From contig OV277861.1 in assembly GCA_922989275.2 (NCBI GenBank), positions 97,316,993 through 97,380,992 on the forward strand: a stretch of 64,000 nucleotides of DNA, given 5' to 3'. The translations under genes and the position numbers were made by a program. The DNA comes from Gari tellinella. Its lineage: Eukaryota; Mollusca; Bivalvia; Cardiida; Psammobiidae. The notes below the pieces were generated by a model. The model saw only the letters and a program-made list of their open reading frames with translations, had not been told where the DNA came from and made no database searches. The stretch's first letter is position 1. The number at the start of each line of letters is the position of its first letter. Shown piece after piece: positions 1,075 to 58,900 of this stretch.

Positions 1075-1523
1075 ACAGTAAAACCTCTTTATTACGACCA
1101 CTAATTTTTGTTAATTAAAGTGGAGAAAACGTTATTCTTTCCCGTTTAAACGCAAACGAAACGCAAAAACATATAAAATGAAGAAAATAACAACTTTTTG
1201 ACATTTGTGAGTGCTGATTTTAACCTGGACGGCAAACAATTTGAATCCTGAACAGACGCCGAGTTACCCGGCGTCTGATCTGGCTTTAAACTGTTTTCAT
1301 TTGAAATAATAGGTTTAGCGTAAACGCGTTTATTGGGAAAGAATAACGTTTTCTCCAATGTAGCACGTGTTAAAGGCCGTTGACTGCTAAAAGCCAGGTA
1401 AACGTAAAACAGACAGCTCCTTTAGGATCTTTCTGTTTTACGTTCACCTTGCTTTCAGCTTGACCGGTATTTAATGATCTAAATTAGCCATGCGCTAGTG
1501 GTCGTAATAGAGAGATTTCACTG
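1075..1523. mobile_element. MITE family G, copy 1, holding A copy 1
   Basis: CAGTAAAACCTCTTTATTAC to GTAATAGAGAGATTTCACTG, TA flanks. Core 2-like hairpin GCTCCTTTAGGATC near 1420. Confidence 0.85.
1118..1360 (+). mobile_element. MITE family A, copy 1 (inside a family G element)
   Basis: Ends AGTGGAGAAAACGTTATTC and GAATAACGTTTTCTCCAATG, flanked by TA on the right. A Tc1/mariner-like MITE with a core 1 hairpin at about 1235-1290. It is nested in family G at 1075-1523. Confidence 0.85.
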
Positions 1524-1526
1524 TAT

Positions 1527-3525
1527 AACAAAAGTCAAACTCGGATGGCGCTACGAAAACTCTTTGTTGTTGTTTTGATACAACAGCATATGAAAACCAT
1601 TGGTGGGTCGCTTAACCTAACTTGAACAACAACAAAAACAACAAATTGGTTCAATGTCAGATATCAAATGATTTGGCATATGGAACTATCGGCATAGTAT
1701 AACTAATGATGAGTAACCCCAACTGTTTACTCTATCTAGATTAAGTTCATACAAGCTTGGAATAGAAATTGGACGTTTTACCGGTAAAGACAGAGTGAAC
1801 AAAATTATTTTTTAAAGATTTGTAACCAAAATCGGATTGAAAATGAGAATCTTAATGTGTTGCCCTATGTATTATCAACTTTAATGTCTTCAAGTATTAC
1901 GAAAAAAATATTATCGATTACTGCTTAGTATACTAAAGAGAGTATGAACTTGCGTAGAAATACCCTGGGTACTATTGTTGCTTTGTGATTTATGTTCTTA
2001 ATGTTTGTGTCTTTTGTCTGCCATATTTCTCTTATATCGTTGTTAATGGCCAAAGGCAATGCATATTGTTGAAATGCTACACACTTCTCCCGGCCCTTAA
2101 TGTTTTAACTTTATTATGGTTATGTTGAACTATTTTTATAATGACCCAAACCCCCCTATCCTAGAGGAAAGATGTGTAATATTTCTCACATTGTTCATGC
2201 AGATTAATCCTTGAAAGGGGCGAAGCATCCGGTCCCTAGACTGGGTTATGAACCAGGTGATAAAACACAATAAACACTGGGCTTGCAAAACCACTGATGA
2301 CGCGACTGGGCAATTACACTGTTGTGATTTCTCAAACACACTGTACAATATTCTATACTGATTTTATAAAATGTATCTTATTGGAAATGATTTCTCAATT
2401 AAGTTATATCAGGACGGTTATTCAATTTAATAGTATGGCTGCTAAGAGTCAAGATAGGCACACTTCTCTCAAATATTTCCCTAGAATATAACAACATCAC
2501 TAAAGTCTTCACTTTTAGTAATATACTCGAAACTACAAATATCTTTTAAAACAACAAACAACATTCTGCTGCCATGCTTAGATGGGCTTATACTGTAGAT
2601 GCGTGTTGAAAATACTTGAAACTAAGATTTTCATTGTATCTTATTTACATTGACAGTTCAAAGCATAGTATATGTAGTATTAAGGTAAATATCTTTTGAA
2701 ATATAACAAAACGAGTTAAAGAAACTTGTCGCTGAACGTATGCCAGCTGATAATGAACACATTCAACTGTTAAAGTTCACCTAAATTGAAGTTTAGGGGA
2801 CGAATGGAATTTTTTGCCGAAAGAAATACTTAAAGCTAAAAATAACGACGACCATAGGCGAATACATATTCTTGGAAAATGCGAGCTGAAACAAATATTA
2901 ACCTTATAGTGTAGTTCATTAAAGTATTTTTTCAGATTTATATAATTCACAACAGCAGATGTTAAGTGCTTGTGTGGCGGCTGTAAAAAGTCGCCCCGTA
3001 CTTCATTCTCAGTGTTGTTATACTTTCTGGTCCTTTGGAATCATTGATTTCAGCGCATTTACAGTTGAAAGTTGAATTCCGCTTAAGCTGGTGCTAGGGG
3101 GCGTGAGCACTGTTGCATATTTCAGTATTGCTCATGAACAGAATCAATTAAACCGAGTCTGCAATTTTCAGTATTTGCTTTGTTTTCTGTGCTTTCAAAG
3201 GATCTCCCCTTATTCAGATTTTTATATATAGTTTCTACAATTGAAAAATAATTGGTCAAATTATTTCCCTTTATTCGGATAAAGTGTTCATTGTGTAAAC
3301 ATGTCTATATCAATTTTTGTTAAGGAACACATTATCAATTAAACATTGTCTTAATAATTAGGTTTGACACTACAGTACCAAAAAAAGTTGTAGATTTAAC
3401 ACATAGCGTAAGTCGGTTAATGTATGGATATGTTTTCGGTCTATAGTGTAAATAGATGACGATAACACATTTTCTAAAATATTTAACACAGCCCTGCTTC
3501 TGAATATTCGTAGTTCTTACCGAAA
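1527..3525. other. Non-coding stretch, nothing clear
   Basis: No MITE core, no long frame, no RNA gene seen. An inverted pair of GTT/AAC-rich stretches lies at about 1560-1645. Part of the LINE's lost 5' half may hide in 3200-3525, but I could not read it. Confidence 0.5.
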
Positions 3526-4740
3526 ATTGTAATGTTGATGAAATTGTTAATAAGTTTTCTTCAGTTTTATGTGATGTAACAGAAGATCTGTTTGTGAAGG
3601 AAACTATTATAAATGAAAGCAAACAGCATTTTAGAAAGTGCAATTCAAATTATTGGTTTGATAGTGAGTGTTACCAAGCTAAACAGAAGTATAAATAAAT
3701 ACGAAAGAAGACTCAAGCAGGAAACGCAACACTATAAGGCTGCATTATACAATTTTAACAAAGAAAGGTCTTATGAAAGTAGAATTGAATTGTTTAATTT
3801 AAAACAAGAGTATAAACGTATTATTCGTAAAAAACGAAGATCTTATAAATACAAGAAAGCAAGGGAGTTCGAAAAGATGAAATATTCTAAACCGCGTGAG
3901 TTTTGGCAATATTTTTCTACGCGTAAGAATGCTACTTCAGACAGTGTAGATCTAGATCTCTCTGACTTTCATAATTACTTTCTAAATATGTTTAACGACC
4001 TGAATGATGTTAACATTGATGAAGCCGAGAATTTTAATCAGGCTCATGATTTTGATGATGGTAATCAATTTTGTGTTGAACTTGATCAGCCTATTACAAT
4101 ACAAGAAGTGTCGTCTGCTATTAAGAGGCTGAAACGCAATAAATCGTGTGCTCCTAGTGATTTTTTGATAAATGAGTTCTTTATTGAAACTACAGATATT
4201 ATTGCAGGTCATATTACAGATTTATTTAACATTGTTTATAATAAGGGATATTTCCCATCAACATGGTCACAAGGATTTATTGTACCGTTACATAAGAAAG
4301 GGGATAAGAACGTGGTGTCTAACTATAGAGGCATAACTTTAATGAGCTGCTTTGGAAAATTATTTACAAGTGTTTTAAATGCAAGAGTTACTCAATTTTG
4401 CGATAATCTGATGCGCAGTTTGGATTCAGAAAAGGGCGTTTGACAATAGATGCTATGTTTCTACTGAAAAATATAATTGACCAAACATTGAATAGTAAGG
4501 GTAGATTATACTGTGCATTTATCGATTTAAAAAGGCCATTTGACTCTATAAATAGAAATGCGTTGTGGCTTAAATTGTATAAGCAGGGTATTAGTGGGAA
4601 ACTTCTTCGGATAATGCGTGCAATGTATGCATCGGTTAAATCATGTGTTAAACATTGTAATTCTCTTTCAGATTTTTTCGACATATCGGTGGGCTTAAGA
4701 CAAGGGGAGACAAATTCACCTATAATATTCGCACTTTTTC
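3526..4740 (+). pseudogene. Non-LTR retrotransposon, 5' part of reverse transcriptase (broken)
   Basis: Three successive frames are needed to read one LINE protein. From about 3526 to 3697 the frame reads NVDEIVNKFSS, then NSNYWFDSECYQAKQKYK and a stop, the linker after the endonuclease where LINEs often have PWFD.EC..A. From about 3690 to 4410 another frame reads a basic linker and RT motifs such as PLHKKGDKNVVSNYRGI. From about 4411 to 4740 a third frame reads QFGFRKGRLTIDAMF, FIDLKRPFDSI (RT box A, with R where AFD is usual) and GLRQGETNSPIIFALF. I saw no intact endonuclease upstream. It is a dead copy; the clade is not assigned. Confidence 0.9.
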
Positions 4741-6449: not shown

Positions 6450-7739
6450 ATATTTCTTGTTATTGAGGATCTTGAATTATACATGCAGGATAGAATAAAT
6501 TGTGGACTTTCGTTTTATGATTTGACTCTTGTACTTCTTCTCTTTGCAGACGACATGATTGTATTAGGGCATTCTCCAGAAGACTTGCAAAATAATTTGA
6601 ATAAATTAGAAGAGTATTGTAATAAATGGGGTTTAGAGGTTAATGTGGACAAAACAAAGATTGTGGTTTTTAGAAAAAGGGGCGGGCTATTAGAAAATGA
6701 AAATTGGTTGTATAAAGGTGAAAGAATAGAAATAGTAAACAATTTTAATTATTTAGGCGTAGTGTTCAATTATACTGGTACTTTTGTTTTAAACAATCAA
6801 TTTGTTTATGGAAAAGCACTGAATGCTATGAATGTATTGTTGTTAAATATTAAGAAGTTTGATCTTAAGCCTAAATTATGTTTACAGTTGTTTGATGCTT
6901 TTGTGTCTTCAATTCTTAACTATGGATCGCCGAATAGGGGATTTACAAAGTCAAAGGATCTAGAACGCATCCATTTGAAATTTTGTAAAATTATTTTAGG
7001 TATAAAGCTTAGTGCTTGTAATAATGCAGTTTATGGGGAATTATGTAGATTCCCGCTATATGTATATAGATATGTAAATATTGTTAAGTATTGGCTAAAA
7101 ATCCAATCTTCAGATAACATTATCATTAGCCATGTATACCAGCGCACACTAGATGATTGTGAGAATGGTATGAAAAACTGGGCTACATGTGTAAAGAATT
7201 TGTTATCTGAATATGGATTCATGTATATATGGCAGCAGCCTTTCCAGGTTGTCAATGACAAAGTTTTCTTAACAATGTTTAAGCAAAGAATACAAGACGG
7301 TTTTATTCAAAAATGGTTTGGTGATATTGATAATAATAATAAGCTGATTTTATATAAGGAATTGAAAATTTCATTAGGCTTTGAAGACTATTTAGATTTT
7401 ATTACCGCAGGAGAGAACCGTATATTTTTGTCTAAAATTCGAATCTCAGCTCATACGCTAAAAATTGAAACCGGCAGATATTCTAGAAACAGATTGGAAA
7501 GACATGAACGTATTTGTATTTTTTGTGATAAAAATGAAATTGAAGATGAATTTCATTTTGTACTAGTGTGTCAGGCCTATAATCAAATACGAAGAACATA
7601 TATTAAACCATATTTTATAAATAGACCTAGTATGTTTAAATTCCTACAATTATTGAACTCTTCAAAAGGTATTATATATAGACTTTCTAAATATTTATCG
7701 GAAGCATTTAAAATTAGAAAAAGTCCGATCATTTCATAA
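6450..7739 (+). pseudogene. Non-LTR retrotransposon, 3' part of reverse transcriptase
   Basis: One open frame of 418 codons from its first ATG (6483), extended upstream in frame to about 6450. FADDM at 6543-6557 is the catalytic box of reverse transcriptases. It is followed by EEYCNKWGLEVNVDKTKIVV, FNYLGVVF (box E area) and a long C-terminal region with C-x2-C and H-x4-C (CIFC...HFVLVC), as in many LINE ORF2 ends. It is the continuation of the 3526-4740 part; the intact length of this half suggests a fairly young copy. Confidence 0.92.
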
Positions 7740-8217: not shown

Positions 8218-8610
8218 AATATTGGCCCGGGGGCAACAGATCTTATGCACGTGAAAACGTTAGCAACGTACCGTTCAAAATGGCTAACGTTCAATGAAGA
8301 TGACGTCATTTGGTTTCTATAACGGCCGCGCTTATGTAAACATTCAAACAATTCACATATTCGTTGATTTTGTACCAGGTACAGTGGAGAAAACGTTATT
8401 CTTTCCCAATAAACGCGTTTACGCTTAAAACTAAAAAATCCATTGCAAACAGTTTGGAGCCAGATCAGACGCCTGGGTGATCCGGGGTCTGATCAGGCTC
8501 CAAACTGTTTTCCAGTTGTATAAAAATGAATAGTCAGAGTTGTCAAAAAGTTTGACCCAACTGTATACAATAAACAAGTCATTATAAAACGGTTGCTGAT
8601 TAAGATGTAT
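8218..8610. repeat. Related copy of the 18.1 kb link sequence, holding MITE A copy 2
   Basis: TTGGCCCGGGGGCAACAG through GTGAAAACGTTAGCAACGTA, GATGACGTCATTTG and TAACGGCCGCGC to ACAATAAACAAGTCATTA. It is interrupted at 8382-8563 by a family A MITE. The flanking hairpins present at 18 kb are missing or degraded here. Confidence 0.85.
8382..8563 (-). mobile_element. MITE family A, copy 2 (short, precise TA insertion)
   Basis: Left end CAGTGGAGAAAACG after TA. The right end is reduced to CCAACTG before TA. The same flank exists empty at about 18255 (CCAGGTATACAATAAACAAG), so the insertion duplicated exactly TA. Core 1 hairpin at 8452-8508. Confidence 0.85.
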
Positions 8611-8749: not shown

Positions 8750-8888
8750 GTTACACAGTGTTCAGGTGACCTAATATGGAATATACACTGCCAGTAAATT
8801 CCATATGGGACTCGAGCTCCGCTCTCGTCCCATATGGAATTTACTGGCAGTGTATATTCCATATTAGGTCACCTGAAAACTGTGTAAC
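8750..8888. repeat. Long near-perfect palindrome, 62 bp arms
   Basis: GGTGACCTAATATGGAATAT on the left returns as ATATTCCATATTAGGTCACC on the right. Arms 8750-8811 and 8827-8888, loop TCGAGCTCCGCTCTC. Confidence 0.9.
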
Positions 8889-9489: not shown

Positions 9490-10445
9490 TTTTGTGTAGC
9501 CATTTCACCGCCTAAAACTCGTCTGCTTTGATACTTTCATGATAAAATTTATCGTGAGATTTACTCCCTTCACCGCCATAGTTTTCGTCTGCTTAAATAT
9601 TATTGTCTGTAATATCGTTTCAATTTTAGATTTTAGGCAGTATAACTGCCGTAGTTTTAGAACGAGTGGCAAAAAGTTTTGATCCTGAACACGCGGCGTC
9701 TGATCAGAATCAAAACTGTTTTCAAATGCGTTTTCTGACGTCATTGAAAGTGAAATGGATAATACTATGACCGGCACTTTTTCTTCAAAGCTAGATTTAA
9801 TGATTGATTTAGTTTGGTTTTACGGAACAGCGACACATAAAATGGTCATATGGAGGTAACGAGACTCAAGGCAAAATGACTGAAACTTATACCGGTATTA
9901 GATTATCAAAACGTTTGGATATTGATCAGGTACCGCGAAACGCAGAGTCGATTACGATTTATTACTAAAATGCAGATATTTATTACATTGTTAGTTCGTG
10001 TATGCCTTTCTTTGTTTGTTGTTGTTTTATCCAAAATTGGAGACACATGTACACCTTATGATGTAACATCAGACAACGTGCAAACACGATTTAGTTCAAT
10101 GTTTCCTTAAACACGGAAGTTGGTCACGCGAAAAAGCGATTTCTGAGGATCATTATAAACCATTTTACTGCCAATATGACTTCATTACCAGTCTAACACA
10201 TTCACTGCCGTGATTATAGTTTGCTCACAAACATATAACATGCTGAATTGTCGTCTGCTTTAAAAGATTTCGTCTGCGAAAAAACTTAAAGCTAATAATC
10301 ATGTTTTTGAAACAGAAACAAGTTGAATACATGTGGCAAACAGGTTGGATCCAGATCAGACGCCGCGTTACGTGCCGTCTGATCTGGATAAGAACTGTTC
10401 GCAAATGTTAGGCAAATCGCGCTTATCACGATAATGGTTAATTTC
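9490..10445. repeat. Two degraded family D-like MITEs
   Basis: Core 1 remnants at 9675-9722 and 10337-10400, with the D-type signature TTGTCGTCTGCTT/GTCTGCTTAA around them. Ends are eroded; borders are approximate. Confidence 0.55.
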
Positions 10446-10449
10446 TAAA

Positions 10450-12300
10450 TTTTAGAATCCAGGTGATTTCGCTTAAAACATTGATATAAATTCGAACTGT
10501 AGTTTGGTGTGCTGATTAAACACCGCGTCACAGAAGTTGTTCTAGAGCCAAACTGTTTGCAAATTAAAGTGCTGTTGATAACGGCACTGAATGGGTTAAG
10601 AGATTTATTAGCAATTAAGTGTTTCGTGTTTCAGAAAGATGCTGGTACTTCGTGCAGTCTGTATTTAGGAACGAATAGCATTTTACAAAAATCGAGTTTT
10701 ACAAACTATATACATTATCCGTTTTTAATTCAGTTGTCAAATATCAGTTTGTTGTAAAGAATAAGAAAAGTATTCAGTATTTCAGCAGATTGTCATTCAT
10801 TGGTTAGATTATATTTGTTTTTAATTGTATATAATTGTATATAATTGGTTATAATACCAATCCTTTCAAATGATAACTACAAATGTATATAATATTTAAA
10901 AGAAGGAAACTGTAGATATAGATATGAAGAATGAACCCAGTACCGGATAGTAATATGTTTAAAAGACTTTAAGAACACAAGTCGCCGTGGATGGTGTTAT
11001 GTGAATATTCGACCTTGTTGAAAAATGACTGGGGTGTCAGTTTGCTCAACGTTGAAAATATCCCCTGGTCGATTTTCAACAAAGGGTTCATATTTTAGGT
11101 AATATTTGGATAAGAACCATTGGTCTCTGGAATACATATAGTTTTCATTCATTATGCTAGGGACTTTTATGCACAATGGCCAATCAATGAGACAACCAAA
11201 GAGCCATCTTGGGGACTACTATAAACAGCGTTGTGTATATAAAACCATAAAAAATCAGACCGGTCGCTTTTGTGGAGTGGTTAGTATGCTGGGGCCCGTT
11301 TCATAAAACTTCGTACGACAAACGTTGTCGTAAGTCATATTATAAAAGTCTCAATTTCTATTTATTTCTCCATCCAATCTTGTTTTATGACATCTCTTTG
11401 GAGTCGTCTTTTCAAGACGATTCCAAGGAGATGTCATAAGACAGGATTAGATGGAGAAATCAGAAATTAAATGTGTTTTAAAGTTTAGACTCACGATATT
11501 TTTGTCGTACGAAGTTTTATTATGAAACGGACCCCTGGGCCGGTGATCCAGAGACTCTTAACGTGCGTTCGGAATAATGACATGGGTGACCATCGCCACC
11601 ATTTACTACCGGTGGTATGTTAGTGGTACCAATGTCTGCCCATAGGATTTGCCAATGGCAGCTTTTTAGAATAGTGATGTAAACGTCACTGTTGTCCCAC
11701 CCACCCAGGACCTATATTATCCGCAGCTGAATTATACCATTTATCTATAAAATAAACTGCCAAAGAATTACACTTCAGACTCACAGCCCGCTGATTTCAA
11801 AGAGATCGCATGTAAAGCCCCGCGTGAGTGAATCAATGTGCACTATCTATTTAACAGTATTGTTACTTTGCTTTCGCTTGTCTATATACGCTTGACATAT
11901 GTATAACAAGGTTAAACATTAGAGGGAATTAAATCTCGCTAATTGTAACTGATAACAATCACGTATACGTAACCTATTCTTGATAACTCCTCTCTAGTCG
12001 TTATATCATCTGCTATTAAACTATCCTCTGAAAACTTTATCAATTTAAGATTTATGCATTTCGGTTTCAGTGGAAATGTCCATTTCTCAGTTTGGTTCCA
12101 GATCAGACGACCCCCGGATGCAAACCTGATCTAAACTCATGTTTGTGGCAAATACCAGGGATATGCAGGCGGAATGTTATGTAGGGTCCGTAATCAGTTT
12201 CACTTCCAAGAAAATCATTGTCCTTGTCCTATATTGATTTCGATAACAAGAGTCACAAGTTAGAATCTATAAGATAGCAAGAGATACGGAAGCACGGCCC
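10450..12300. other. Non-coding stretch with one H element
   Basis: Apart from the H MITE (11291-11537) and a core 1 remnant at about 12090, I see AT-rich sequence with no supported gene. Confidence 0.5.
11291..11537. mobile_element. MITE family H, complete
   Basis: GGGCCCGTTTCATAAAACTT to TTATTATGAAACGGACCCC, near-palindromic throughout, tip GTCGTCTTTTCAAGACGA. Confidence 0.85.
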
Positions 12301-12581
12301 AGTTACCAACTTACCCCGAATTCAATAGTTATTTGCAAACAGTTTGGATCCTGGTCAGACGCCGTGTCACGTGGCGTCTGATCAGGCCCATACTTGATTG
12401 ACACTCGTGTTTTTATTTCCTTAGTCATAAAACCTAAATTTCAAATTTGAGATATGGAAATAGACGACAATTGTTTGAAATGTTTGACGCCATGGACTCT
12501 TGACAGTGAAGTGGTTAATAAAAGGCACAGACGAGCAGTGCGATAACGAGGCTGACACTAGGTCTAACCAGCGATGTGAAA

Positions 12582-12695: not shown

Positions 12696-12993
12696 AAAAC
12701 GTTGTTGTTGTTTGCAAGATCGTTTTAAATTAAGAGTCAATGTAGTATGACTTAAAACATATCAACACGAGTGTCAAACAGTTTGAATCCTGATCAGATA
12801 AGCGGCGTCTGGTCAGGATCAAAACTGTTTGCAAATGCGCTTTATGACGTCATTGAGAATGAAAGGGGTAGATCTATAGGATATCAAGTAATACAACACC
12901 ACCAACCACCACTTGCCTTAAAACAATTGATATGCTTTCTAGATTCTTGATTCGAACGGCTAAGGTTCAATTTCTGTAAGCGTTATTAAGTTA

Positions 12994-13239
12994 CAGTGGA
13001 GAATCTGTTATTCTTTCCCGTTTAAACGCAAACGTACGCAAACGCAAAACACTAAAACGTAGAAAAGTACAACTTTTTGACAATTCTGATAATTCATGTT
13101 TATCTTGGTGGCAAACAGTTTGGAGCCTGATCAGACGCCGGGTTACCCGGCGTCTGATCTGGCTCCAAATTGTTTGCACTGCAAATAATAGTTTTAGCGT
13201 AAACGCGTTTATTGGGAAAGAATAACACATTCTCCACTG
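12994..13239 (+). mobile_element. MITE family A, copy 3
   Basis: 246 bp with ends CAGTGGAGAATCTGTTATTC and its inverse, TA on both sides, core 1 hairpin in the middle with GGGTTACCC at the tip. Confidence 0.9.
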
Positions 13240-13927: not shown

Positions 13928-14173
13928 CAGTGGAGAATCTGTTATTCTTTCCCGTTTAAACGCAAACGTACGCAAACGCATTGCACTAAAACATAGCAAA
14001 TGACAACTTTTCGACAATTTTGACTGTTCATGTTGTTCTGAGTGGCAAACAGTTTGGAACCTGATCAGACGCCGGGTTACCCGGCGTCTGATCTGGCTCC
14101 AAACTGTTTGCAATGGAAAAAATAGTTTTAGCGTAAACGCGTTTATTGGGAAAGAATAACGTTTTCTCCACTG
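13928..14173 (+). mobile_element. MITE family A, copy 4
   Basis: Same ends and TA flanks as copy 3, with the GTTTTC end variant on the right and an inner GCAAACGTACGCAAACGC block. Confidence 0.9.
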
Positions 14174-15140: not shown

Positions 15141-15382
15141 CAGTGGAGAATCTGTTATTCTTTCCCGTTTAAACGAAAACGTACGCAAACGCACAACACT
15201 AAAACGTAGAAAAGTACAACTTTTTGACAATTTTGACTATTCATGTTTATCATGGTGGCAAACAGTTTGGAGCCTGATCAGACGCCGGGTTACCCGGCGT
15301 CTGGGCTCCAAACTGTTTGCACTGCAAATAATAGTTTTAGCGTAAACGCGTTTATTGGGAAAGAATAACAGATTCTCCACTG
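15141..15382 (+). mobile_element. MITE family A, copy 5
   Basis: TA-flanked, ends CAGTGGAGAATCTG and CAGATTCTCCACTG. The core 1 stem has lost four bases on its right arm (GGCGTCTGGGCTCC). Confidence 0.9.
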
Positions 15383-15555: not shown

Positions 15556-15801
15556 CAGTGGAGAATCTGTTATTCTTTCCCAATAAACGCGTTTACGCTA
15601 AAACTATTATTTGCAGTGCAAACAGTTTGGAGCCAGATCAGACGCCGGGTAACCCGGCGTCTGATCAGGCTCCAAACTGTTTGCCACCAAGATAAACATG
15701 AATTATCAGAATTGTCTAAAAGTTGCTCTTTTCTACGTTTTATTGCTTTGCGTTTGCGTACGTTTGCGTTTAAACGGGAAAGAATAACAGATTCTCCACT
15801 G
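15556..15801 (-). mobile_element. MITE family A, copy 6 (inverted)
   Basis: Only 173 bp from copy 5 and in the opposite orientation, so the two form a large inverted pair. TA flanks, full ends and full core 1 hairpin. Confidence 0.9.
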
Positions 15802-20933: not shown

Positions 20934-20981
20934 TACATCTTTATCTATATTATACTTTATCTCAATCGCACTTTACTATTA

Positions 20982-43900: not shown

Positions 43901-46900
43901 GTTGCGTCTGAAAAATTGAGACTTGAAATCTTAGGATTTGTATTATCAACTTATGGCAGCCTGTTTCTGTATCGACACATACTGCAGAGTATTTAGATCA
44001 AAATTGCATATCGACAATGAAATATTCCAGCAAGTATAGATGGAGAGTTCATAGTAATATTCAGGAATAAATGGGTTACAATTACATTTTGTTTGTCATA
44101 ATATTGAGTTACACCTTGTTATCAACCTTCATAAAGACGGCAGCTTAATGCAATACCTCTGTAAGGAAGATGACTCCTTTATGGGTATTCTGTCTTATAT
44201 TTGCTGTGCATTTAGCGGTTACATTATCTATAGAAGGGCCAATTAAAGGTTTCTTTAAAGAGTTGCCATTGAAGACAGGTTTGATTGTAGTCCACTATAA
44301 TTAATTACAGTCGAACTTCGATATCTCGAACTTGGTTAAGTCGAACACACCCTAATTTCAAAGTTAAAACGTGGCTAAGCCACGTTTTAACTTTGAAATA
44401 TGGGTATGTTCGACTGAACCGAGCATGAAATAATGCAGTTCATGTATCGAACTATCGGATAGTTCGAGTTAAGCGAGTTCGAGATATCGAAGCTCGACTG
44501 TAGTTGGCATGACAACATGTCACGATATGCCTGACTCGAGAACGTAACCACTAACAATTACCATCTGACACACACTTGATGTATTTGTTAACAAACTAAT
44601 TGAAACAGAATATTTTGTATTCAAACCAGTTAATATCAATTAAAGTTGTCGTCTACAGTTATTGCACGACAACGTTTATGTTCCATTTGTTCAGAAAATA
44701 CCCCATTAACCCTTATCCTGCGGTGATGTCGTCTGCTTCGAAATTGTCGTCTGCAAAGTTTGCTAAATTTAGATTTATATATTTTTTAAGTAAAGAAACC
44801 TAAAGAAGAGTGTCAAACAGTTTGGATCCAGATCAGACACCGCGTTACGCGGTGTCTGATGTGGATCTAAACTGTTTGCAAAAATCAGTAAAGTCGCGAT
44901 CAGCAGGCAAAGGGTGAACTCTTTCACTCGCAACGGCGCCAAAAGACAATTTTGCAATCAGTTTGAATCCTGTTTAGACGGTGCGAATGCGGCGTCTGAT
45001 CAGGATCCAAGCTGTATGACACTCGTACCAACGTTTCGTCAGTCAAAACAGCCCTAGAGCTGATGTTAGAAATATTGCAGACGACACTTTAAATGCAGAG
45101 TTTTGGCGGTAAGAGGATTAAAGTAGACCATTAAACTTGGCTGGGAATGAGTTAAATTTATAAACAGTCTGACACGCAAGGGAGACGGTGCCAATATTTG
45201 CATACAAAATGTGTGGTACATTTTTTTCACGGATTCACCCATAAAGTGATTCGCGAAGACTGCCAAGTCCAACATTTACATTTGAAATATACAGAGGAGC
45301 TGTTGCGAATTGTTGACCGAAATGCCCATGGCGTCATATATACTAAAAGAAAAAAACGATAACTTTGGTTTAGAACGGCCAGTCTATGCACATTGTAGTG
45401 TCTGCTCAAACATATTATGGCTTGAGTATCTTTGTTTATCATCAATAACGCTACTCATTACCACATAGATACGAATTTAACACTTCCATTCCAATATATA
45501 CAGTCATGAATAAGTATCAATAGAAATATTTGCTATATTCAAGTTACGGTTAACCCTTTCCCTCATAGGAGCACCTTTCAGCACATTTGATATAATCTTC
45601 CACTGAAAAAAAGTTCCAATGTACAGTGGAGAATCTGTTATTCTTTCCCGTTTAAACGCAAACGTACGCAAACGCAAAGAGCTAAAACGTAGAAAAGAAC
45701 AACTTTTGGACAATTCTGATATTTCATGTTTATCTTGGTGGCAAACAGTTTGGAGCCTGATCAGACGCCGGGTTACCGGCGCCTGATCTGGCTCCAAACT
45801 GTTTGCACTGCAAATAATAGTTTTAGCGTAAACGCGTTTATTGGGAAAGAATAACACATTCTCCACTGTAGGATCACCTTTCAGCACATTTGATATAATC
45901 TTCCACTGAAAAAAAGTTCCAATGTATATAGTCATAAACATGTATTAAACTAGATGTTTTCTAACTTCTAGCGAAATGGTAGTTTCAAGCAGGTTGAAAG
46001 TGAAGCAGAATACGCCTTAAGGCGTATTCTGCTTCACTTTCAACCTGCTTTAAGTGGTCACTTATCTTCAAATGTAGAACCAGGCTATGATGTAAAGGGT
46101 AATAATTAGTTGGAGACAATGCTCACCTTACTTCTGATGATTCCGCTATTGGCTCTGGTAAATATCTGGTGTACACGATATGTTTTAGTAAACATGGCTC
46201 CAAAGGCAAGTGAAAATCCAGCGGCAAACAAAAACACCCGGGCCTGTAAATACAAAATTGTACGTAATAGTTCTGTAACAAGGTCAAGTTCGGTAGACAA
46301 TTCATCAAGTTTAGAATAAAAACAAGTATATCGAGCATATCGAAATATGTATTCTTCGATATAGCGTCGTCTGCTTCCATATTGCTGTCTGCAAGAACTT
46401 TTTAAAGTTGGGTTTAAGGTAGTATGACTTAAGAAATATCTACACGAGTGACAAACAGTTTCGATCCTGATCAGGATCCCACCTATTGCAAAGTCGACTT
46501 TATTCGACTTCGGCAGCGAAAGTGTTAATAAAATCTGAAAGGCAAACAGCTTGAAGTATGAATACTTAGTATCTGCTCTGTCTTCAAACTATAATACACT
46601 ACACATAATTGTTTTAGCACATACGCATTTATTGGACAAGAATACCGGCTTCCCCATTGCATAAACAATTTGTTTGGCTCATCTCTATGTGACGACTCCT
46701 ATAACCTTTGAAATGCCATATAGTAAAAAAAATGTGGCATGAGAACTTGTTTTAATCTATATTAGATGTCGAATAATTTGGCGTCTAGTCGTAATTTAAA
46801 TTGCGTATAGACATGTAGTAAAATTCCTTTCCATTCCAAACTATCCTTTACTTTTAATATATTATCTGAGAAATTAATACTAGTTTAACAGTTTTGGTTT

Positions 46901-49900: not shown

Positions 49901-52900
49901 AACACAGTGTAAAACTTAAATCGAATTTTAAAAAGTTTCGAACAGGTGAACACTTTCCCTCGTTAATTGAATACAAGTGTTTATATGTGTAAGCTCCACT
50001 GAAGAACTCTAGGAACAAATAGTGATTGAACTATGCACGTGTTCGTCCGTCAACTATGTGTACCTTTTGTTAGAAGCATATTTCCAATATCAAATTAACT
50101 TTGGTAACCAACTTTCGAGTTTGTAAACATCTTAGGATGGTGGAGAACCTGACGTCATTATTGGGTACATTAATTGTAACTGACGTTGGGTCTGGCAGCA
50201 GTTACAGAACAGAACTTAACGACATCAGTTAGGGATACCAAGTTGTGATGGTGTAGTGTTACTAACATTTTGTGATGATAGCTGCACTGACCCTAACATG
50301 TAACAGTTCTGGAGTACTTTACCACGACAACTACAGATACCAAATTAATTACGTTACTACATCTTTTGAATACGAAGCATCTTATAAATTTCAGGTCATT
50401 GTAACCATGATATTGACCTTTGAACTCAATGCTTGAATAACCAGGTTCGGTGCATATTTCCTATATAACATCAGCAAAGCACACCAAATGTGTTGTGTTA
50501 GTACATATTTTCGCGTTTGGCCTTCGATCTCATATTAGAACTTTGTCCGGAGCATTTTGCTAAACAATATCAACCAGGGCACATCATTTTGTGTGTAGGC
50601 ATATTTTGGGCTGTTAGAGTCTTAAATTGTATTACAACGAACTAGATTTTTGATCGTAATCATTCAAAAACATGTCTGGGGTATACCGGTATTGCCTTTA
50701 CCACATAAGCTATTGAAAACAAATATGTGTATTATAACGGCGGGACATAATAGGACGGCGGATTGTAGCAGGTGTTAAACGTTTTTGATCAGTCAATACT
50801 TTATCCGTCCTAAAACACACAAGTATCCGTAATTTAAGATACAGTGTGACAAAATCCTTAATTGCACAACCGTTTGCGTTACAACTTAATACGAATATCT
50901 CCAAAAATACGTCATAAGTAGATCTATTATGTTTTATTTACAAATGGAAGTAAGAAATCGTGTCTGAATTCATGGATGAATATTGATAAGATATTAGCAA
51001 CAATTATCAAAGAAAGGATTGTCTGGCTAGTGTTGTTTTGCGACACTACTTATGAAGACCTCTTAAGGTAGCAGTTCATAACATCATGACGGTTCCCAAA
51101 TATCGCATACTAGTTTTGTCAGTCTCCAAAGGCATGATACTATCATGTTATACCTGTGGTTGCAACCCGAATTTGATTTTGGTGTATTGCTAGATATAAA
51201 GTTTAACCCATTCGTGCCTAGAGCCCCATAAAACGAGCCATCTAATCATAGTCTACATGTTTTGCTGACAGGACTTCCAATATAAATCACAATGAAAATG
51301 AAAGTTAGACCACGCAATCCTTACATAAAAATGGACTAGTCCGTGAAAAATGGATCGAACATTTCCTTAACATAATATATATAAGTACACAATGGTATTT
51401 ACTGTACAAATATATGGATATATATCATCCTCCAACGTTGAAGCATCGTAACCAAGGACTATAATACCCGAATATACCAACATACAGCCAACCACTGCAA
51501 CATTGTTGAGCTTTGGACTGGATAGCTTTATGTACCTGCAATGATATTGTAAAGGACTATTCAACCCGTTTATGCCTAGTGGAGTCTCCGGTTCTTGTAT
51601 ACAGGATTATTCCACTTTTGATCTAGGGGGTGCCTGATCTAAATTTTCTTTTTCTTTTGTTTTATATAGATTTTTTTTATCGGCAAATAGTGTAGACTCT
51701 GATCAGATACTGCATAATGCGGAGTCTGGTCAGAGTCTGTACTGTTTGCCTATATATAGGACCGGGGCACACATGGGAAACAGGTGCGTGGCGATCACAA
51801 TAGACATATATGAATGCTTATTACAGGACAAAAGTAGCACAGAAACGTTTTAATATAATTTTCTGAGCAGTTTTTCTTTTTGTATAATGCTACCACCTTT
51901 ATCAAATATTACAAGTTATCTATCTTTATTTTGAGTGACCGATGGATACAAGCACAAGTTATATTTACCCAAATGCTAGAAAAATGCGATTTCAATATAT
52001 CTAGGGATTGCTTCAGCTTATATTTTACAAATAAAAACATCTAGTTAGTCTTAAAGATATGGATGCTTCGAAAGCATCGAAAGCATAGCATTATTTCTAT
52101 TCGCTAACAAGTATTTGTAAAATTTGCAGTCCAGGGTTTTGAAATGAAAATAACAATTTTTACCCTGACTTGCCCTGCATGCCTGAGTATATTCACATTC
52201 GCTTATAGCTTTTGTCAGTATTGGTGAATAACTTACGGACTTCCAATAGCAGTCCGTTGTTTTTGTCACTTTTGTTGATGTTTCTTTATTATATATACCT
52301 AAAGTTGGAACGAAGATATAAGCGGATCTTTTAACTCTTTACTGGTTTTGCAAACATTTCTGAACCATACCGGACACCGAGTAAGTCAGCGTGTGATGAG
52401 GATTGAAAATGTTTGGCAATCACCTTGGTGTTTCTCCAATTACATGCAGCATTCTGAAAATTGGGAAACCAAAGCAAGATATGTGTTTTAACCCTTTAAC
52501 CCATAGCCTATTTCTAGTAGTTAAGATATGTGACCTATTAAAGCAGGCTGAAAGTAAAGCAGAATGTGCCCTAGGGCACATTCTGCTTTACTTTTAGCCT
52601 ACTTTAAGTTACTATCTGCTAGTATATAGAAAATATTTCTTATAATACATATTCATGACAGTATAAAATGGAACTATTTTCTTTGGCGAATGAATAAAAT
52701 GAATGCGCTAAAAGTCGCTTCTATAAGGGAAAGGGTTAAGCAAACAGTATTCTGATAGGGAAATAAGTCGAGCAGTAAATGGGTTATATAGCACAACGGT
52801 TCGACTGAAGTCAAGAGATTAACCCTTTCAACCGTACATCCATCTGTAGAGATTACTGATTACATATACAAACAGTGTAGACCCTGATCAGAGGGCTCCT

Positions 52901-55900
52901 ATAGGAGCCCTCCGATCAGGGTTTGCACCGTTTGATATTGTCATTGGTTTTTGTTGTCATATCAAAATGCAACAGTAGACTGCTTCAAAATGCTTGCACT
53001 AGAAGAGTATTTAGAAAAAAGATAATAAAATATCCACAAGGGATATTTAGGGTTTAAAGGGCTTATACCTACCTTAGGCGTCTGTGGTAGAGATTATACG
53101 TTAGAAAAATGGTTGCCAATACCAGGCCCACGACACTAACAGAACTAACACACAGTACTGCGAGAGGGAGGATCTTCTTAGGTCTCGGTACAATAACCTT
53201 CTTGTCTCGTGGTGCCCTCCCTCCTATGGGTACAATAAGAAGTGTATGCATGAAAGAAAAGCACATTCATCTAGTTTATCCTTCTGCTATACATTACTGG
53301 CGTGAATGGCTACAGATGACTATTTTGTGGACAATTGCATAGTGTACGAAACGTTAATCTATTTATGCCTAGTCGACTCTTATATGATTATATATTGGAT
53401 TAATCCAATTGTTATTTAAGGAGTGCCAGGTCTACTATTTTAAATTTTCATTTTATAAGTTTTAAGGGAAATTCTGTTAGCAAACAGTAGAGTCAGATCA
53501 AACGGCGTAGTATGCGGCGTCTGATCTGAATCTGCATTGTTTGTCTTTGTACAATTTATGGTGACAAATAGGTTGACTTATTGTCTACAGACAGTTTCTG
53601 TCATTATACACTCTTGTAAAAAAAAGACGTGAAATGTTCGAAGTAAGCGTGTCCAATATGTTTGGATTTGAATCTGTCACAGATATAAGTGTTTTTACTT
53701 GAAACAACAAAATACATGCCATAAATTTCTTCAATAGTTCTGAATGTCTGAGCGTATATCTTCTATATACCCCACGAATGAATATTGATAGATAATGTTG
53801 AGTATATGAAACAGCTTAAAGCAAGAAAGCTCCTTGGTTTAAACATATTTATTTTAGATATTTTACGTTAACACAATAATACACTGATATAATGAGAAAG
53901 GATTGGATCGAAAGCGGTTCTTAGAAGAGATAATAGTTTTTGCACTATTTGAGATACACTAGGGACAGTAGATGCTCAGTAGAAAGCTCATGAACCCTTT
54001 CACTCTCAATGACGCCACCTAAAGCACGGCGTCTGATCAGGATCATAACTTGCTTTGAAATTTCGTCAGTTATTCCGCCTTCAATCTAATTTTGAAAATA
54101 TATTGCAGACAGCAATATGGTAGCAGATGACAATATGGCGGTGAGGGGGTCAACACCTCACTCAAACTTTGATCATGAAAGGGTTAAATAGTTTTGCGTT
54201 TTACATTCATCTTGTTTAAATCAATCACCTGGTGTAAACATAATTCAATACAGGCTATAAGTATATGTAGCTACGGAGGACAGGGCTAATCCCACTCGCC
54301 ATATTACACTACTTTTATCGCATAACTTGCGGTCTGGGAGTGGTATTACGCCATTATATAAATATCGTATTCCACTAGTGAAATATCGTTTGCGGCTCCG
54401 GACAATTATTATTATTATTATTACTTATCAGTTTTAAACTCGTTGACTAGATTTGAAATGACCCTCGCCAAGGCTCGCGTCATAATATTTTAGTCAACTT
54501 GTTTAAAAAAAGTGATAAATAATGATCACTCATGTAAGATCCTCTATTTCTTTAACTGTTTGTGTTAGCAAAATGTTTTCACAAAAAGTATGTTCTTGTT
54601 CGACACGGAGTTGTTTTCCTATCGCATGAAGCAAGCTCAATTACAGTAAAACACCTCCAATTGACCAAAATTTAAGTTAATTATTAGGTGTTAACGACAG
54701 GTGTCTGCTTAGAGCAAGTTGACAGTAACACAGAATTATCGCGTAGGATGTAATCTGTTTTTATATAATCAATTTCCTTCGTTTCAGTGGTAGTCATTGA
54801 GCGCTTTACTGTATAAAAAGAAATTCTCACAGATATAAAGTCCGTATGTGTTTTCTAAAACAACGATTCAACCGCCCGATGTGTAATATTGATAAAATTT
54901 TAAATATGACTCTAGTTGAGATCGGACAATAAATAAAATGATATGACAAGAGTGTCATGTTTACGAGATAAATATTATATATCAGTGAGTGTGCTTTTAA
55001 ACTGTTGTTGGAAGAGTAAAATTTTAACATATTTTATTCGTTTGTCTGCCTTTGATTGCAGGTTATCAAACGATTTACAGCCACACTTTCTACACATATA
55101 ATACCTCTCTTTAGTACAGTGGAGAAAACGTTATTCTTTCCCGTTTAAACGCAAACAAAACACAAACGCTACACACAAAAATTGAGAAAATGACTACATT
55201 TTGACAATTCTGTTTATTCATTTTAGTTTGAGCGGCAAACAGTTTGGAGCCTGATCAGACGCCGGGTTACCCGGCGTCTGATCTGGCTCCAAACTGTTTG
55301 TAATGGAAATGATAATTTAAGCGTTAACGCGCTTATTGGGAAAGAATAACGTTTTCTCCACTGTATCACTAAAACATATAATCGTTGTAATGTAACAAAA
55401 GGAGAATTACTCGTTTCGGGCTTTCTTAATCGATCTGGTAATGCATTCAGCATCATCTTGTCGCTCTACAGTAAATCTTCTTTATTACACCCAACAAATC
55501 GAAGGTTAAATGATTGTATAAAAGACACGTTACAGCTTAAAACAAGATAACAGTAAAACAGAAGGCTCCGTCAGCATTCACCTCTCTTAAACACATAATA
55601 TTTAACAAAATTTATTGGTCTTAATAGAAAAGTTTTACTGTCGTTATAATTTATAAACTTGGCTTCTTGATTAAGTTGTTCGTGAATAAAGAGCACAGTT
55701 TATGCTTATTGTGTTCACCTTTACCTTCTCAATGACGATTAAAAGCGCCTTTGCAAACAGTTTTATTCCTGATCAGATGCCGCGTAACGCGGCGTCTGAT
55801 CAGGACCCACATTGTTTGATACTCTTATCGATATGTATCAAGTCATTCGCCCGTAAATAAAACTTTGAAGCGTGTATTGCAGACAACAATTCTGAAGCAG

Positions 55901-58900
55901 ACGACAATAAAGCGGTGAAGGGGTAAAATTCTCCCGAATAATTTGATCATGAAAGGGTTAATAGCGAGATTTTAGTGTCGTTACAGTTAATAAACCTCGT
56001 TTCTTGGTTGAGTTGTTCGTGAAAAAATCGATATGAGTGAGTACAGTTTATGCGCATTGTGTTAAAGTAATTTCGCTTACCCCTCCATGTGATTGACTGG
56101 CACGTTCTGCAAAAGAAGTTAAGTTTCTCTTTGTCCGGCTCATACAGAGCAATTCTCGCAATATGGCCATCTGAAATACCATATTGGAACAGAATGGTGC
56201 ATAATTATAGTGGAAAAAACGTTATTCTTTCCCGTTTAAACGCAAACGTACGCAGACGCAAAACACTAAAACGTAGAAAAATTCTGATAATTCATGTTTA
56301 TCTTGGTGGCAAACAGTATGGAGCATGATCAGACACCGGGTTACCCGGCGTCTGATCTGGCTCCAAACTGTTTGTAATATAAATAATAGTTTTAGCGTAA
56401 ACGCGTTTATTGGGAAAGAATAACGTTTTCTCCACTGTACCACGTATTTAAACTATAATTAGGCACATGTATTGTGTAACGACAGCACAACTTGAAATAA
56501 AACAAATTGTGAGAATGTCGTAGCTTTGCTGCTGATTGGGTTAAAGTCGGTGCTACTCAACGACAGGTAAGTATCACTCATTTTCTTATATTCTCTTTGT
56601 CCGGCTCATACAGAGCAATTCTCGCAATGTGGCCATCTGAAATACCATATTGGAACAGAATGGTGGATAATTACATCGGTTTTATACTAAAAGAGACTAT
56701 TGAAACTCGCTTCTGTTGTGCGCACCTCGTACTTAAACTAAAATTAGGCACATGACATTGTATTGTGTTACGACAGCACAACTTGAAATAGAAAAGATGG
56801 TGAGAATGTCGTAGCTTTGCTGATGCTTGGTTTAAAGGCGGTGCTACTCTACGACAGGTTAGTCTTATATCCGTTATTTTCAATTAAAACAGTCTTAGCA
56901 TAAAGGAAACGCATCTGATTCTAGTCTCGCTTTACCATTATTTCAGGTCGTTACAATATAACAGGCAGACCCTGCACTTAACGTATCTGAAAAAACACTT
57001 AAAACACGAGCTTATATCATCAATTAAAAAAAATTGATAAATAATTGATGGAATTTAACAAGCATTTGACGTGAAGATATGAAATAAATGTATTTACAGT
57101 ATAATTATAACATTTCATTGTCCATTTCTTTATTTTGAAGCATTACACTTCCATGTAGTTGAGATGACATTTGAGTGCGGTCCCAAATTTGGAATGTTTG
57201 CATCTTACAAACTGTGTGTGCTCGTATGTGTTGTAGTCTCTTACACACAGTATCTACTTGTTTGTCAAAATCTCATTAAACAGGATGTGGATATTTCCTT
57301 AGATTGATTTGACATTGTAGCCTTCGATGGATTCGAAAGTGGGCAACAACAGACGGGAACCATCCCGGCCCGGCCATTTTGACATTCTTCGCAAACCAAT
57401 GCAATTATAGGAAAACTACGGTGGCACTGAGGTGACATGCAAACATTTTTTTTTTTTTTTTTTAGTTTTTATCTCGTGTGCACGACTTAATTTGTTAAAA
57501 AAAAATCCTTCACTTTTTATCTCGTGCGCGCACGACTTAATTTGAAAAAAATAAAAAATTCTTTCAATTTATCTCGTGCGCACGACTTAATTTGAAAAAA
57601 AAAAATCGTTATCTCGTGCGCACGAGATAAAAAGGCAAAGATTTTTTTCCCCCTTCAAATTAAGTCGTGCGCACGAGATGAAAAGTAAAAAAAAAAAAAA
57701 AATGTTTGCATGTCACCTCAGTGCCACCGTAGAAAACTGTTAGACTAGCGTAAAATTAGTTTTTAGTCAACTGGTTTATTTAACAATCATAAATTCTGAG
57801 CACTCATGTACGATTCTGTATTTACAGATTAGGACAATAAGGAACTGTTTGGATGGTAGTAGATCGATTATTAATAGCCTTCGGTCAAATGACGGGTTTA
57901 TCAAAAGCTTTTCAAGTGACAAACGTGTTTGATATAATTATAAAAGGTTGCAGAGTAATATAACAAGAACATGTGCTACATTGTCAATATGTTAAGGAAC
58001 TTGTTATAAAACGAAATTAGGAGTAGAATTTTATAAAACATCTTTCCAAATTAACGCATTTATGATTAAGCAATTATATTATTGCGTATACTTTGGAGTC
58101 AGGTCAGATACCGTGTAAGCGTTTGCAACACACATGTATACATCTTCAATACTTTTAAGCTATTTCATGCGTGTTTATTTCGATCCGTTGAAATGGAAGA
58201 AAATAACAACTTTCCTATTGTATTATTTCTGTGTTATTTTATATCAGCCCTTGTAAACTTACTTGATTGACGTTTCAATAACCTTTTTGCATACTAGTCA
58301 GTCTTCCTTAAACTAGATTTAGGTAGTGTTTGGTTATAATGCACGAAAGTGTATTCCCGAGAAATTATTGAGTATGTGATTTATATTATACAATTAATCT
58401 CGACTATTGACTCCAATTGATGCTGCCCACTAAACTGAGCATTAAAGAGTTTGAGTATGTGATTTATAGTATACAATAAATCTCGACTATTGGCTCCAAT
58501 TGATGCTGCCCCCTAAACTGAGCATTTAAGAGTTACTGACTAAAAGTTACAAAATCAGGTTTAAAAATAGTTGTAGCTTTTTTGTAAGTGTAGGAAACCT
58601 TCTTACGAAACGTCGTACGACAAAAACGGCCATAAGTCAGATTGTAAAGTTCTCAAATATTATTTATTTCTCCATCTAACCCTGTCGTGTGACATCACTT
58701 CGGGGTCGTCTTGAAAAGATGTTTGCAAAGAGACTTTACAAGACAGGCTAAGACTTAGAAATCAGAAATTATATTTGTTCTAAAGTTTTGAATTACGACT
58801 GTTTTGTCGTACGATGTTTTGTAAGATGGACCCCAGTAATGCATACATTTTTCACGGGAGATTTCAGCATTATTTTTAGAACGAAGTAACAACAGAATCA

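Follow-up and report, generated by a model that had tools for sequence, protein, structure and literature searches.

A hairpin common to TTAA-target and TA-target MITE families in the bivalve Gari tellinella, probably inherited through a piggyBac-type lineage

The window analysed here, a stretch of 64,000 nucleotides from Gari tellinella, is densely populated by short transposons carrying a 65-bp near-perfect palindrome, designated core 1. A core-1 profile returned 46 non-overlapping matches at E<1e-8, both edges being present in 39 of them, which bears out the original prediction of roughly 50 such palindromes between 1.2 and 56.4 kb. The exact sequences GATCAGACGCC and GGCGTCTGATC occur 24 and 29 times, respectively, in the window, where base composition would lead one to expect about 0.008. 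Across the whole 1.6-Gb genome, the GATCAGACGCC stem was matched exactly 291,405 (forward) plus 290,986 times, as against only 32 plus 19 matches for a reversed control pattern. The copies and associated features in the window are as follows (strand in brackets; a dot where none is assigned):

1233-1297 (+), core 1 in old A element (about 1112-1362)
8446-8511 (-), core 1 in A element, long side diverged
10337-10401 (.), core 1 without main-family flanks; GGGTTAA at 10593
12336-12400 (-), core 1 in D1 element
12775-12831 (+), core 1 in D2 element
12994-13239 (+), A element, TA both sides; core 13112-13176
13928-14173 (+), A element, TA both sides; core 14046-14110
15141-15382 (+), A element, TA both sides; core 15259-15319, small arm deletion
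15556-15801 (-), A element, TA both sides; core 15619-15683
16160-16405 (+), A element, TA both sides; core 16278-16342, symmetric arms
17353-17417 (+), core 1 in D1 element
21045-21109 (-), core 1 in A element (about 20979-21229)
21501-21565 (-), core 1 in D1 element
21802-21876 (-), core 1 in D3-type element
24533-24597 (-), core 1 in D2 element
26881-26946 (.), degraded core 1 without family-assigned flanks
27290-27354 (+), core 1 in D1 element (TTAACCCCTTCACTG ... GGGGTTAA, 27180-27396)
28900-29145 (+), A element, TA both sides; core 29018-29082
31085-31149 (-), core 1 in E element whose interior is of D type; GAGGGAGCGCTG at 31334 as right end
32308-32372 (+), core 1 in D2 element
34408-34472 (+), core 1 in C element, TTAACCC at 34285
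35120-35184 (.), degraded core 1 without family-assigned flanks
35476-35540 (-), core 1 in C element
35939-36003 (+), core 1 in C element, TTAACCC at 35815; short side split by A at 36017
36017-36262 (-), A element, at TA inside C element; core 36080-36144
37002-37066 (-), core 1 in D1 element; abuts core-2 element at shared TTAA
38119-38183 (.), old core 1, weak flank cluster
39270-39334 (+), core 1 in C element
39489-39543 (+), core 1 in D1 element, apex shortened
40665-40910 (+), A element, TA both sides; core 40783-40847
42297-42654 (-), E element, TA both sides; core 42394-42458
42551-42566 (-), D-like terminus GCAGTATAGGTGTTAA within E element
43211-43395 (-), E copy, hairpin apex deleted, arms kept
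44814-44878 (+), core 1 in D3 element, TTAACCC at 44706
44955-45018 (-), core 1 in D2 element
45624-45868 (+), A element, TA both sides; core 45742-45805
51684-51748 (+), core 1 in old C element
52869-52934 (+), related hairpin, outer arm same, apex GAGGGCTCC, F-type core
53481-53543 (+), core 1 in old C element
55117-55363 (+), A element, TA both sides; core 55236-55300
55754-55818 (-), core 1 in D2 element
56208-56437 (+), A element, TA both sides; core 56310-56374

The predicted A, C, D and E elements are all present with the ends and the family-specific arm flavours ascribed to them. One layout is common to every family, namely a short side (about 40-100 bp), the hairpin and a long side (about 105-200 bp); the hairpin thus lies inside the elements as foreseen, but off-centre. 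The stem proved not to be constant as had been claimed, since relatives sharing the outer arm contain GATGAGACGCC or have a GATCAGAGGGCTCC apex instead, two hairpins of the GATCAGAGGGCTCC kind being found in the window at 14452 and 52869. All families were found via the core, and any with very different hairpins would have been missed. Three core patterns gave no match in a viral contig collection, and the GATC palindrome none in a genome contig collection. The GATG palindrome had two matches in the latter collection, in two bacterial MAG contigs.

The A elements have CAGTGGAGAA ends and the E elements CAGYGCTCCCTC ends, both with core 1 inside and both combining terminal inverted repeats with a TA target duplication. 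TA was found on both sides in 35 of the 38 A copies with both ends, the base beyond it being repeated in only six of the 38; one A copy has inserted at a TA within a C element (36017-36262), and the one E copy examined (42297-42654) likewise has TA on both sides. Judged by this target site and by their end motifs, A and E would be Tc1/mariner-like MITEs. TTAACCC-type ends, again with the hairpin inside, are found in C and D and also in another family, F. The consensus ends of C, D1-D4 and F read TTAACCC or TTAACTC; in a strict test over a limited stretch, TTAA was intact on both sides in 5/11 copies of C, 4/10 of D1, 1/17 of D2, 2/5 of D3, 3/4 of D4 and 2/8 of F, counts low enough that TTAA at both ends is a property of the consensus and of a minority of single copies. 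Because C and D have one end type, the truly unrelated end types number three (TTAACCC, A and E), and the claim of unrelated ends stands for these but not for C versus D.

Searching with PF13843 gave 86 matches, the best 17 of which lie in stop-free open frames of 493-635 codons. Ends of the CCC/CTC type were found at two of the four piggyBac loci fetched and none at the other two. One of these loci (L037) is a 3.1-kb autonomous piggyBac element that has TTAA and 13-bp CCCTTTCGGCGCC repeats in perfect inversion (13/13), and the terminal repeat of the other (L038) is CCCTTACAATGCG, inverted at 11/13 positions. The ends of the autonomous piggyBacs in this genome (TTAACCCTT) are similar to those of C, D and F; the D2 long end agrees with the L037 end at 17 of 20 bases, and the other listed family ends at 10-13 of 20. 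With terminal repeats starting CCC/CTC as in the autonomous relative, C, D1-D4 and F look, by sequence, like piggyBac-type MITEs. Kolobok-type identity was considered for the same TTAA sites and set aside, the ends described for T2-MITE/Kolobok (PMC6004289) and KolobokP (PMC9587614) being RR...YY, unlike the CCC...GGG seen here. Piggybac-type transposases are described as binding palindromes via paired cysteine-rich domains (piggyBat, PMC11707139), which by analogy offers a lead for a cis role of the hairpin.

The long flanks of D1, D2, D3, D4 and E are homologous in all ten pairs (z 4.5-10.5), the E long consensus GCAGTGAAAGCGTTAGA being similar to the D sequence GGCAGTGAAGGGGTTAA. As E still has the core and the long flank of D, together with a terminus resembling that of D, it is most probably a TA element harbouring a nested D. 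The A core is 92% identical to the D2 core and its flanks are at chance level. D-like remnants were sought in A by anchored extension of the flanks (z no higher than 2.4), by family profiles (no match in the A flanks at E<1) and by a banded local test against D (best match, family-wise p = 0.18), none being significant; in line with the original prediction of unrelated ends, A and D have nothing detectable in common beyond the hairpin. As A shares only this with D, and bears no trace of D flank or end, we infer that it got the hairpin by nested insertion or capture. No proto-E or proto-A lacking the core was found. Core identity among A, C, D and E is 0.75-0.98 and long-flank identity among the families 0.41-0.70 (shuffled levels 0.44-0.52), an excess of core over flank likeness that is ascertained, since the families were found via the core; the zero point of the flank scores is not exact, and the comparisons accordingly relied on relative scores and on shuffled controls. 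The analysis supports the earlier contention that a core common to TTAA and TA elements cannot have arisen simply by internal deletion from a single parent.

Arm differences between families are mirrored, 16 of 31 pairs having changed on both sides, a level reached in 0 of 500 shuffles; in the F-type cores, 12 of 31 pairs have done so. Constraint on the stem was assessed on copies ascertained by their flanks, with CpG sites removed. Private mutations per cell were equal (0.0415 flank, 0.0400 core), and shared variants numbered 0.0295 per cell in the flank versus 0.0193 in the core (pooled Fisher p = 0.003). Taken by family, only A and F reached p<0.05 alone, with C in the opposite direction; when CpG sites were retained, only the A long side (p = 0.048) and the F short side (p = 0.02) differed. 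The shared-variant cells of A amounted to 0.077 per cell in the terminal repeats, 0.076 in the short-side spacer and 0.106 in the long-side spacer, and terminal repeats as variable as the short-side spacer are unexpected under a simple constraint model. Compared pair by pair with the consensus in flank-chosen copies, the core fell below the flank in the majority of copies, for example in 34/37 A (by long flank) and 21/26 D2, but in C in 6/11. The strong within-family conservation of the core seen in core-chosen copies was largely lost once copies were flank-chosen and realigned. After this correction for ascertainment bias, the data give modest support to the view that source copies keep the stem, and it is at this level that the suggested selection for the hairpin finds some backing.

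Could a single palindromic ancestor have given rise to all core-1 elements, A included, the spacers and ends diverging beyond recognition around a conserved hairpin? The identical layout in all families, the agreement of core and flank families and a weak C-D flank homology (C-D1 p 0.015, family-wise 0.02) speak for such ordinary descent, which we nevertheless regard as rather unlikely: the D4 and A cores are equally far from D2 (0.92), yet D4 retains 57-67% flank identity to D1-D3 whereas the flanks of A are no more alike than shuffled sequence, and both ends and target site differ (TTAA versus TA). Gene conversion, or template switching among resident copies, could have carried the core across families, and would account for the A-D similarity stopping at the palindrome edges and for the C and F apex blocks differing as whole symmetric units. 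Core type, however, equals flank type for 106 of 111 copies, and for 24 of 26 in a held-out set; of the two mismatches in that set, one is an A element interrupted by a second A. The flank-first searches concur. Exact TA plus A-end matches had the core in 45 of 46 cases, the remaining one being cut by the sequence end; with up to three mismatches, 46 of 48 A ends did so, and of the two misses one was truncated by the sequence end and the other has diverged. Every A copy identified through an adjoining flank (37 via the long side and 39 via the short, in overlapping sets) had the core, and 80 of 91 C/D/E/F outer flanks led to one. The other 11 comprise six that have apparently lost the apex or the core, an F core that scored below threshold, three without a recognisable hairpin and a single core-2 case (L024), in which a core-2 hairpin comes 127 bases after an F-like flank (2727-2806, E 1.7e-7); this exception may reflect exchange or else similarity between F and core-2 elements. 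Such near-complete agreement indicates that exchange is at most rare now, so that the exchange proposed earlier was not upheld as an ongoing process and gene conversion or template switching is an unlikely source of the sharing.

A hairpin mobile in its own right, with transposons as its targets, would explain its presence in three unrelated end types, and 13 of 131 hairpins indeed have neither flank in a family. Nine of these 13 have at least three mismatched pairs and four only one or two, so that a few young hairpins without family flanks remain; several of the 13 show TTAA-like ends by eye. No solo insertion with its own target duplication was demonstrated among the 131, and the core is present in all flank-found A copies and in the 45 testable exact A ends. 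This part of the original prediction thus went unsupported, and we deem it highly improbable. As for a hairpin acting as RNA, a small-RNA precursor kept by selection for that role, core 1, with 65 bp and a stem of about 30 bp, is of a form that we take to be pre-miRNA-like, and the predicted RNA fold of the copy at 40783-40847 has -61.2 kcal/mol (z -14). MITE hairpins have also been described as able to yield miRNAs (PMC1784062). Against this, G-U and A-C mismatches are equally frequent within the oriented families (80 and 72, p 0.57), so that no transcribed strand is favoured, and the window holds no Rfam match at the gathering threshold; an RNA role accordingly appears decidedly unlikely.

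The interior of a MITE is usually seen as passive filler. On balance, we consider it probable, albeit well short of certain, that core 1 is the inherited centre of a piggyBac-type lineage, carried into TA families by nesting or capture, with a predicted role in the multiplication of source copies. Descent of the core within the piggyBac-type lineage is itself likely. A D element would have inserted into a proto-E TA element, the composite then spreading, and A would have gained its hairpin once in much the same manner, or through repair-associated copying, and retained only the palindrome thereafter. The stem would be kept in those copies that seed new ones, either through a function in cis or through template switching that holds the two arms symmetric. 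A bolder reading, which we put forward tentatively as possible but doubtful, sees core 1 as a portable hairpin domain, the counterpart of the conserved domains of SINE families, gained independently by TTAA and TA lineages, reshaped by mirrored changes and boosting multiplication under any transposase. Retention of a palindrome under different transposases, with some 290,000 exact stems in one genome, would, if true, suggest that hairpins give DNA transposons an advantage at the level of the host or of replication. The families, arm flavours, apex types and deletion products constitute many natural replicates for testing such an advantage, and the E elements would illustrate how a new TA family is built by nesting.

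Six motifs sought as letters in literature text were not found, and of 10 papers containing one of two 11-mers none was, judged by title, on transposons; in the text available, "hairpin" and "palindrom" are absent from PMC10294476, as are "hairpin" and "inverted repeat" from PMC8905726. A MITE-like repeat of 210 bp with 30-bp terminal repeats, described in the haemoglobin genes of the bivalve Lucina pectinata (PMC4732748), has a 77-bp central palindrome, its sequence being given in a figure only, and by its layout offers a parallel to core 1; similar fragments were reported in other molluscs, and the text of that account, unlike the case of core 1, reports no sharing across families with different ends. 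Template switching was described by Monttinen and Loytynoja (2022, PMC8794818) as altering both arms of a hairpin in one event, their text dealing with RNA genes and holding nothing on sharing between transposon families.

The CMITEs of Acropora corals, as portrayed by Wang et al. (2010, PMC2872659), are piggyBac-type MITEs at TTAA sites, whose families differ in their terminal repeats and have in common a 75-base interior more conserved than the ends, for which the authors suggested a role in transposition while cautioning against ascertainment bias. Their ends, such as CCCTTTCACTGCCA, show a likeness to the families here, and in both systems the interior is more alike between families than the ends or flanks (here ascertained via the core); one of them, CMITE-IN, was a new element created by CMITE insertion. 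All CMITE families have TTAA ends, whereas A and E use TA, and CMITEs number about 1,600 copies compared with some 290,000 exact stems here. Core 1 forms a near-perfect palindrome whose changes are mirrored, and the CMITE interior is aligned in a figure. MER6, as reported by Luchetti et al. (2019, PMC6887750), is a Tc1/mariner MITE with a conserved domain of another element class, which its authors explained by one element inserting into a second and the two then spreading together; the captured domain came from a V-SINE and is not described as a hairpin in the text, whereas the part presumably captured here is one. By analogy, CMITEs and MER6 together are close precedents for the hairpin shared among these bivalve families.

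A typical core 1, the hairpin carried inside several MITE families, is a 65-bp palindrome composed of CAAACAG, an arm of 8-9 bp, GATCAGACGCC, a 9-bp apex and the mirror image. The motif GATCAGACGCC occurs 24 times and its reverse complement 29 times as exact matches in the window, where a profile built from 33 cores recovers 46 separate core-1 matches at E<1e-8; the core of one A copy has a predicted fold of -61.2 kcal/mol (z -14 versus shuffles). The recurrence of the hairpin was borne out on a far larger scale across the genome (1,597,604,326 bases, 80 contigs), where exact matches to GATCAGACGCC number 291,405 in the forward and 290,986 in the reverse orientation, as compared with 32 and 19 for a reversed-pattern control. 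Sampling at fixed round coordinates (25 stretches on 15 contigs, each of 10 kb) gave 126 profile matches, of which 95 fell in 20 stretches and 31 in five, and 59 forward exact motifs; extrapolated from the ratio of the two, the genome-wide total of such hairpins may be about 0.6 million.

Other repeats are found in the same region. Core 2 (AAAGCAGAATGCGCCTTAAGGCGCATTCTGCTTT), a hairpin unrelated to core 1, lies at window positions 112-159, 18769-18850, 45987-46050 and 52538-52607, among others; some of its elements look TTAACCC-ended, and TTAA is often present in its apex. Further long, near-perfect inverted repeats of up to 120 bp, likewise unrelated to core 1, occupy 8761-8877, 11364-11460, 18280-18399, 23384-23503, 34665-34735 and 44334-44420. 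Positions 27771-28709 hold a tandem array of three units, each about 320 bp long (67% and 86% identity to the middle copy), and the open frames 3613-4443 and 6483-7739 are candidate parts of a non-LTR retrotransposon reverse transcriptase, which they resemble by eye.

Families were defined by clustering the outward flanks, without use of the core, of 131 hairpins whose two edges were both present, drawn from the window, 20 stretches and eight short loci. A family was assigned to 111 of them (A 44, D1 10, D2 17, D3 5, D4 4, C 11, E 12, F 8), the remaining 20 being excluded from family-based counts. In 13 of these 20, neither flank belongs to a cluster of at least three: nine have 3 to 22 mismatches per 30 pairs (one of them, at 8791 of locus L019, is a good palindrome if a small shift is permitted), and the other four have just one or two, so that a few young hairpins stand in surroundings not assigned to any family. 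C, D1-D4 and F end in TTAACCC or TTAACTC, while the ends are CAGTGGAGAATCTGTTATTC in A and CAGYGCTCCCTC-like in E, both at TA. Family F, absent from the families originally listed, combines the outer arm of core 1 with the apex GATCAGAGGGCTCC and is represented by two hairpins in the window. The original observation that one hairpin is common to families with different ends holds, between the TTAA-ended C, D1-D4 and F and the TA-target A and E.

TA stands on both sides of 35 of the 38 A copies with both ends, the base beyond it being repeated in six of the 38, which is chance level, and a TA within a C element is the insertion site of the A element at 36017-36262. Genome-wide, exact matches to the A end with TA number 66,178 on the forward and 66,211 on the reverse strand (control 0 and 0). 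Further A insertions lie within a D1 element and next to the core of a different A element (L027, about 2238-2414; L035, 2261-2520). For the TTAA families, a genome search with the piggyBac transposase domain PF13843 returned 86 matches, the best 17 of which lie in stop-free open frames of 493-635 codons; recent piggyBac activity is suggested by transposase frames that score identically on different contigs of the assembly G000 (C3 and C4; C1, C4, C5 and C17; C10, C12 and C14). Four piggyBac loci were inspected. The element at L037 spans 3.1 kb and has TTAA together with 13-bp repeats that are perfect (CCCTTTCGGCGCC); that at L038 spans 2.7 kb and carries CCCTTACAATGCG (11/13 inverted); no such ends were found at the other two. 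The long end of D2 is identical to the L037 end at 17 of 20 bases, with a shuffle p of 0.0003 that is liberal because shuffling destroys the common CCC; the other family ends listed match L037 or L038 at 10-13 of 20. A strict both-ends test was passed by 17 of 55 single copies of C, D1-D4 and F pooled. C, D and F are judged to be piggyBac-type MITEs on account of their ends and target site. At L038 (G000:C10:11265000-11269300), the autonomous piggyBac element (937-3703) sits exactly in the apex TTAA of an F-type hairpin, both arms of which flank it; from this single case, a TTAA in a hairpin apex may serve as a target for insertion.

Exchange of the hairpin between families, or a hairpin that is itself mobile, had been the strongest reading offered. 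When each core was placed by its nearest cores, its own flanks being ignored, the result agreed with the flank-based family in 106 of 111 cases (A 44/44, C 11/11, E 12/12, F 8/8, D 30/32, D4 1/4) and in 24 of 26 from a further 50 kb of the genome, where one of the two disagreements concerns an A element split by a second A. A search starting from the outer flanks of C, D, E and F gave 92 matches, 91 of them usable and one truncated by the sequence end, and core 1 was reached from 80 of the 91. The other 11 comprise one sub-threshold F core, three flanks without a recognisable hairpin, one leading to core 2, and six that resemble apex or whole-core deletions, decay products to be expected of a palindrome:

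Window 43211-43395, apex- or core-deleted copy, flanks kept
Window 40239-40372, apex- or core-deleted copy, flanks kept
Window 22341-22442, apex- or core-deleted copy, flanks kept
L027, about 7505-7622, apex- or core-deleted copy, flanks kept
L030, 714-829, apex- or core-deleted copy, flanks kept
L030, 7436-7548, apex- or core-deleted copy, flanks kept

Exact A ends lead to the core in 45 of 46 cases, the remaining one being truncated by the sequence end, and in 46 of 48 when up to three mismatches are allowed; no core-less A copy was found among these ends. Given this agreement of cores with flanks and ends, exchange at the present time has left little trace. A mobile hairpin is not supported either. 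At L024 2727-3010, an F-like long flank (E 1.7e-7) is followed 127 bases further on by a core-2 hairpin, which may reflect exchange or a likeness between F and core-2 elements.

How core 1 came to lie within both end types is clearer for E than for A. An anchored test reveals homology among the long flanks of D1, D2, D3, D4 and E (z 4.5 to 10.5 in 10/10 pairs), whose identity is 57-70% versus about 50% in shuffles. Within E, the D motif GCAGACGACAATTTnAAGCAGACGA persists, as does a terminus resembling that of D (GCAGTGAAAGCGTTAGA in the consensus, GCAGTATAGGTGTTAA at 42551-42566 in one copy), while the short side consists of TA-element sequence; E is therefore most simply read as a TA element with an inserted, partly deleted D. 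The A core is 92% identical to that of D2, whereas the A flanks stand at the shuffled level against every family: z is at most 2.4 in the anchored test, family flank profiles give no match with E<1 to A, and one local A-E match has p 0.05 (family-wise 0.18). The D4 core is as distant from D2 as is the A core, and its flank homology is nonetheless detectable; A thus has the palindrome, and nothing more detectable, in common with other families. In A, a nested D might have eroded until the hairpin was all that was left of it, or the palindrome might have been copied on its own, for example in excision-gap repair. Nested insertion accounts well for E and less well for A, and the puzzle left is that A and D overlap in the palindrome only, a stem that outlives all its surroundings.

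Differences between families are mirrored across both arms. Two-sided change is found in 16 of 31 pairs among 18 real copies, with 36 such cells versus 9.7 in shuffles, a value reached by 0 of 500 shuffles, and in 12 of 31 pairs among 12 F-type and related cores, counts that overstate independent events since the sequences are kin. Within six families, there are 346 single-sided changes, 18 complementary double and 16 other double. As for selection on the hairpin, strong core conservation in source copies was discarded, the first comparison being biased by copies picked via their core. In flank-chosen copies, private and shared variant counts are similar in core and flank, except on the A long side (p 0.048) and the F short side (p 0.02). 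Seven families pooled, with consensus CpG sites removed, have equal private mutations per cell (flank 0.0415, core 0.0400) and fewer shared variants in the core (0.0193 versus 0.0295; Fisher p 0.003). Six of the seven families follow this pattern and C goes the opposite way. The result lends modest support to selection on source copies. An RNA structure, also proposed, gained no such support: G-U mismatches are balanced by A-C mismatches (80 versus 72) and so give no hint of a strand preference, and the window has no Rfam match.

Bivalve MITEs with hairpins are already known, since a 77-bp palindrome at the centre of a MITE from a Lucina clam has been published (PMC4732748). A hairpin common to TTAA and TA families was not found in the openly licensed literature, covered as text without figures and mostly as titles and summaries. 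MER6 is described as a Tc1/mariner MITE carrying a domain of another element class (PMC6887750). The closest case to the core-1 families is that of the coral CMITEs, piggyBac MITEs whose ends differ and which have a 75-base interior in common; a role in transposition is proposed in that study, which also reports an element newly created by insertion (PMC2872659).
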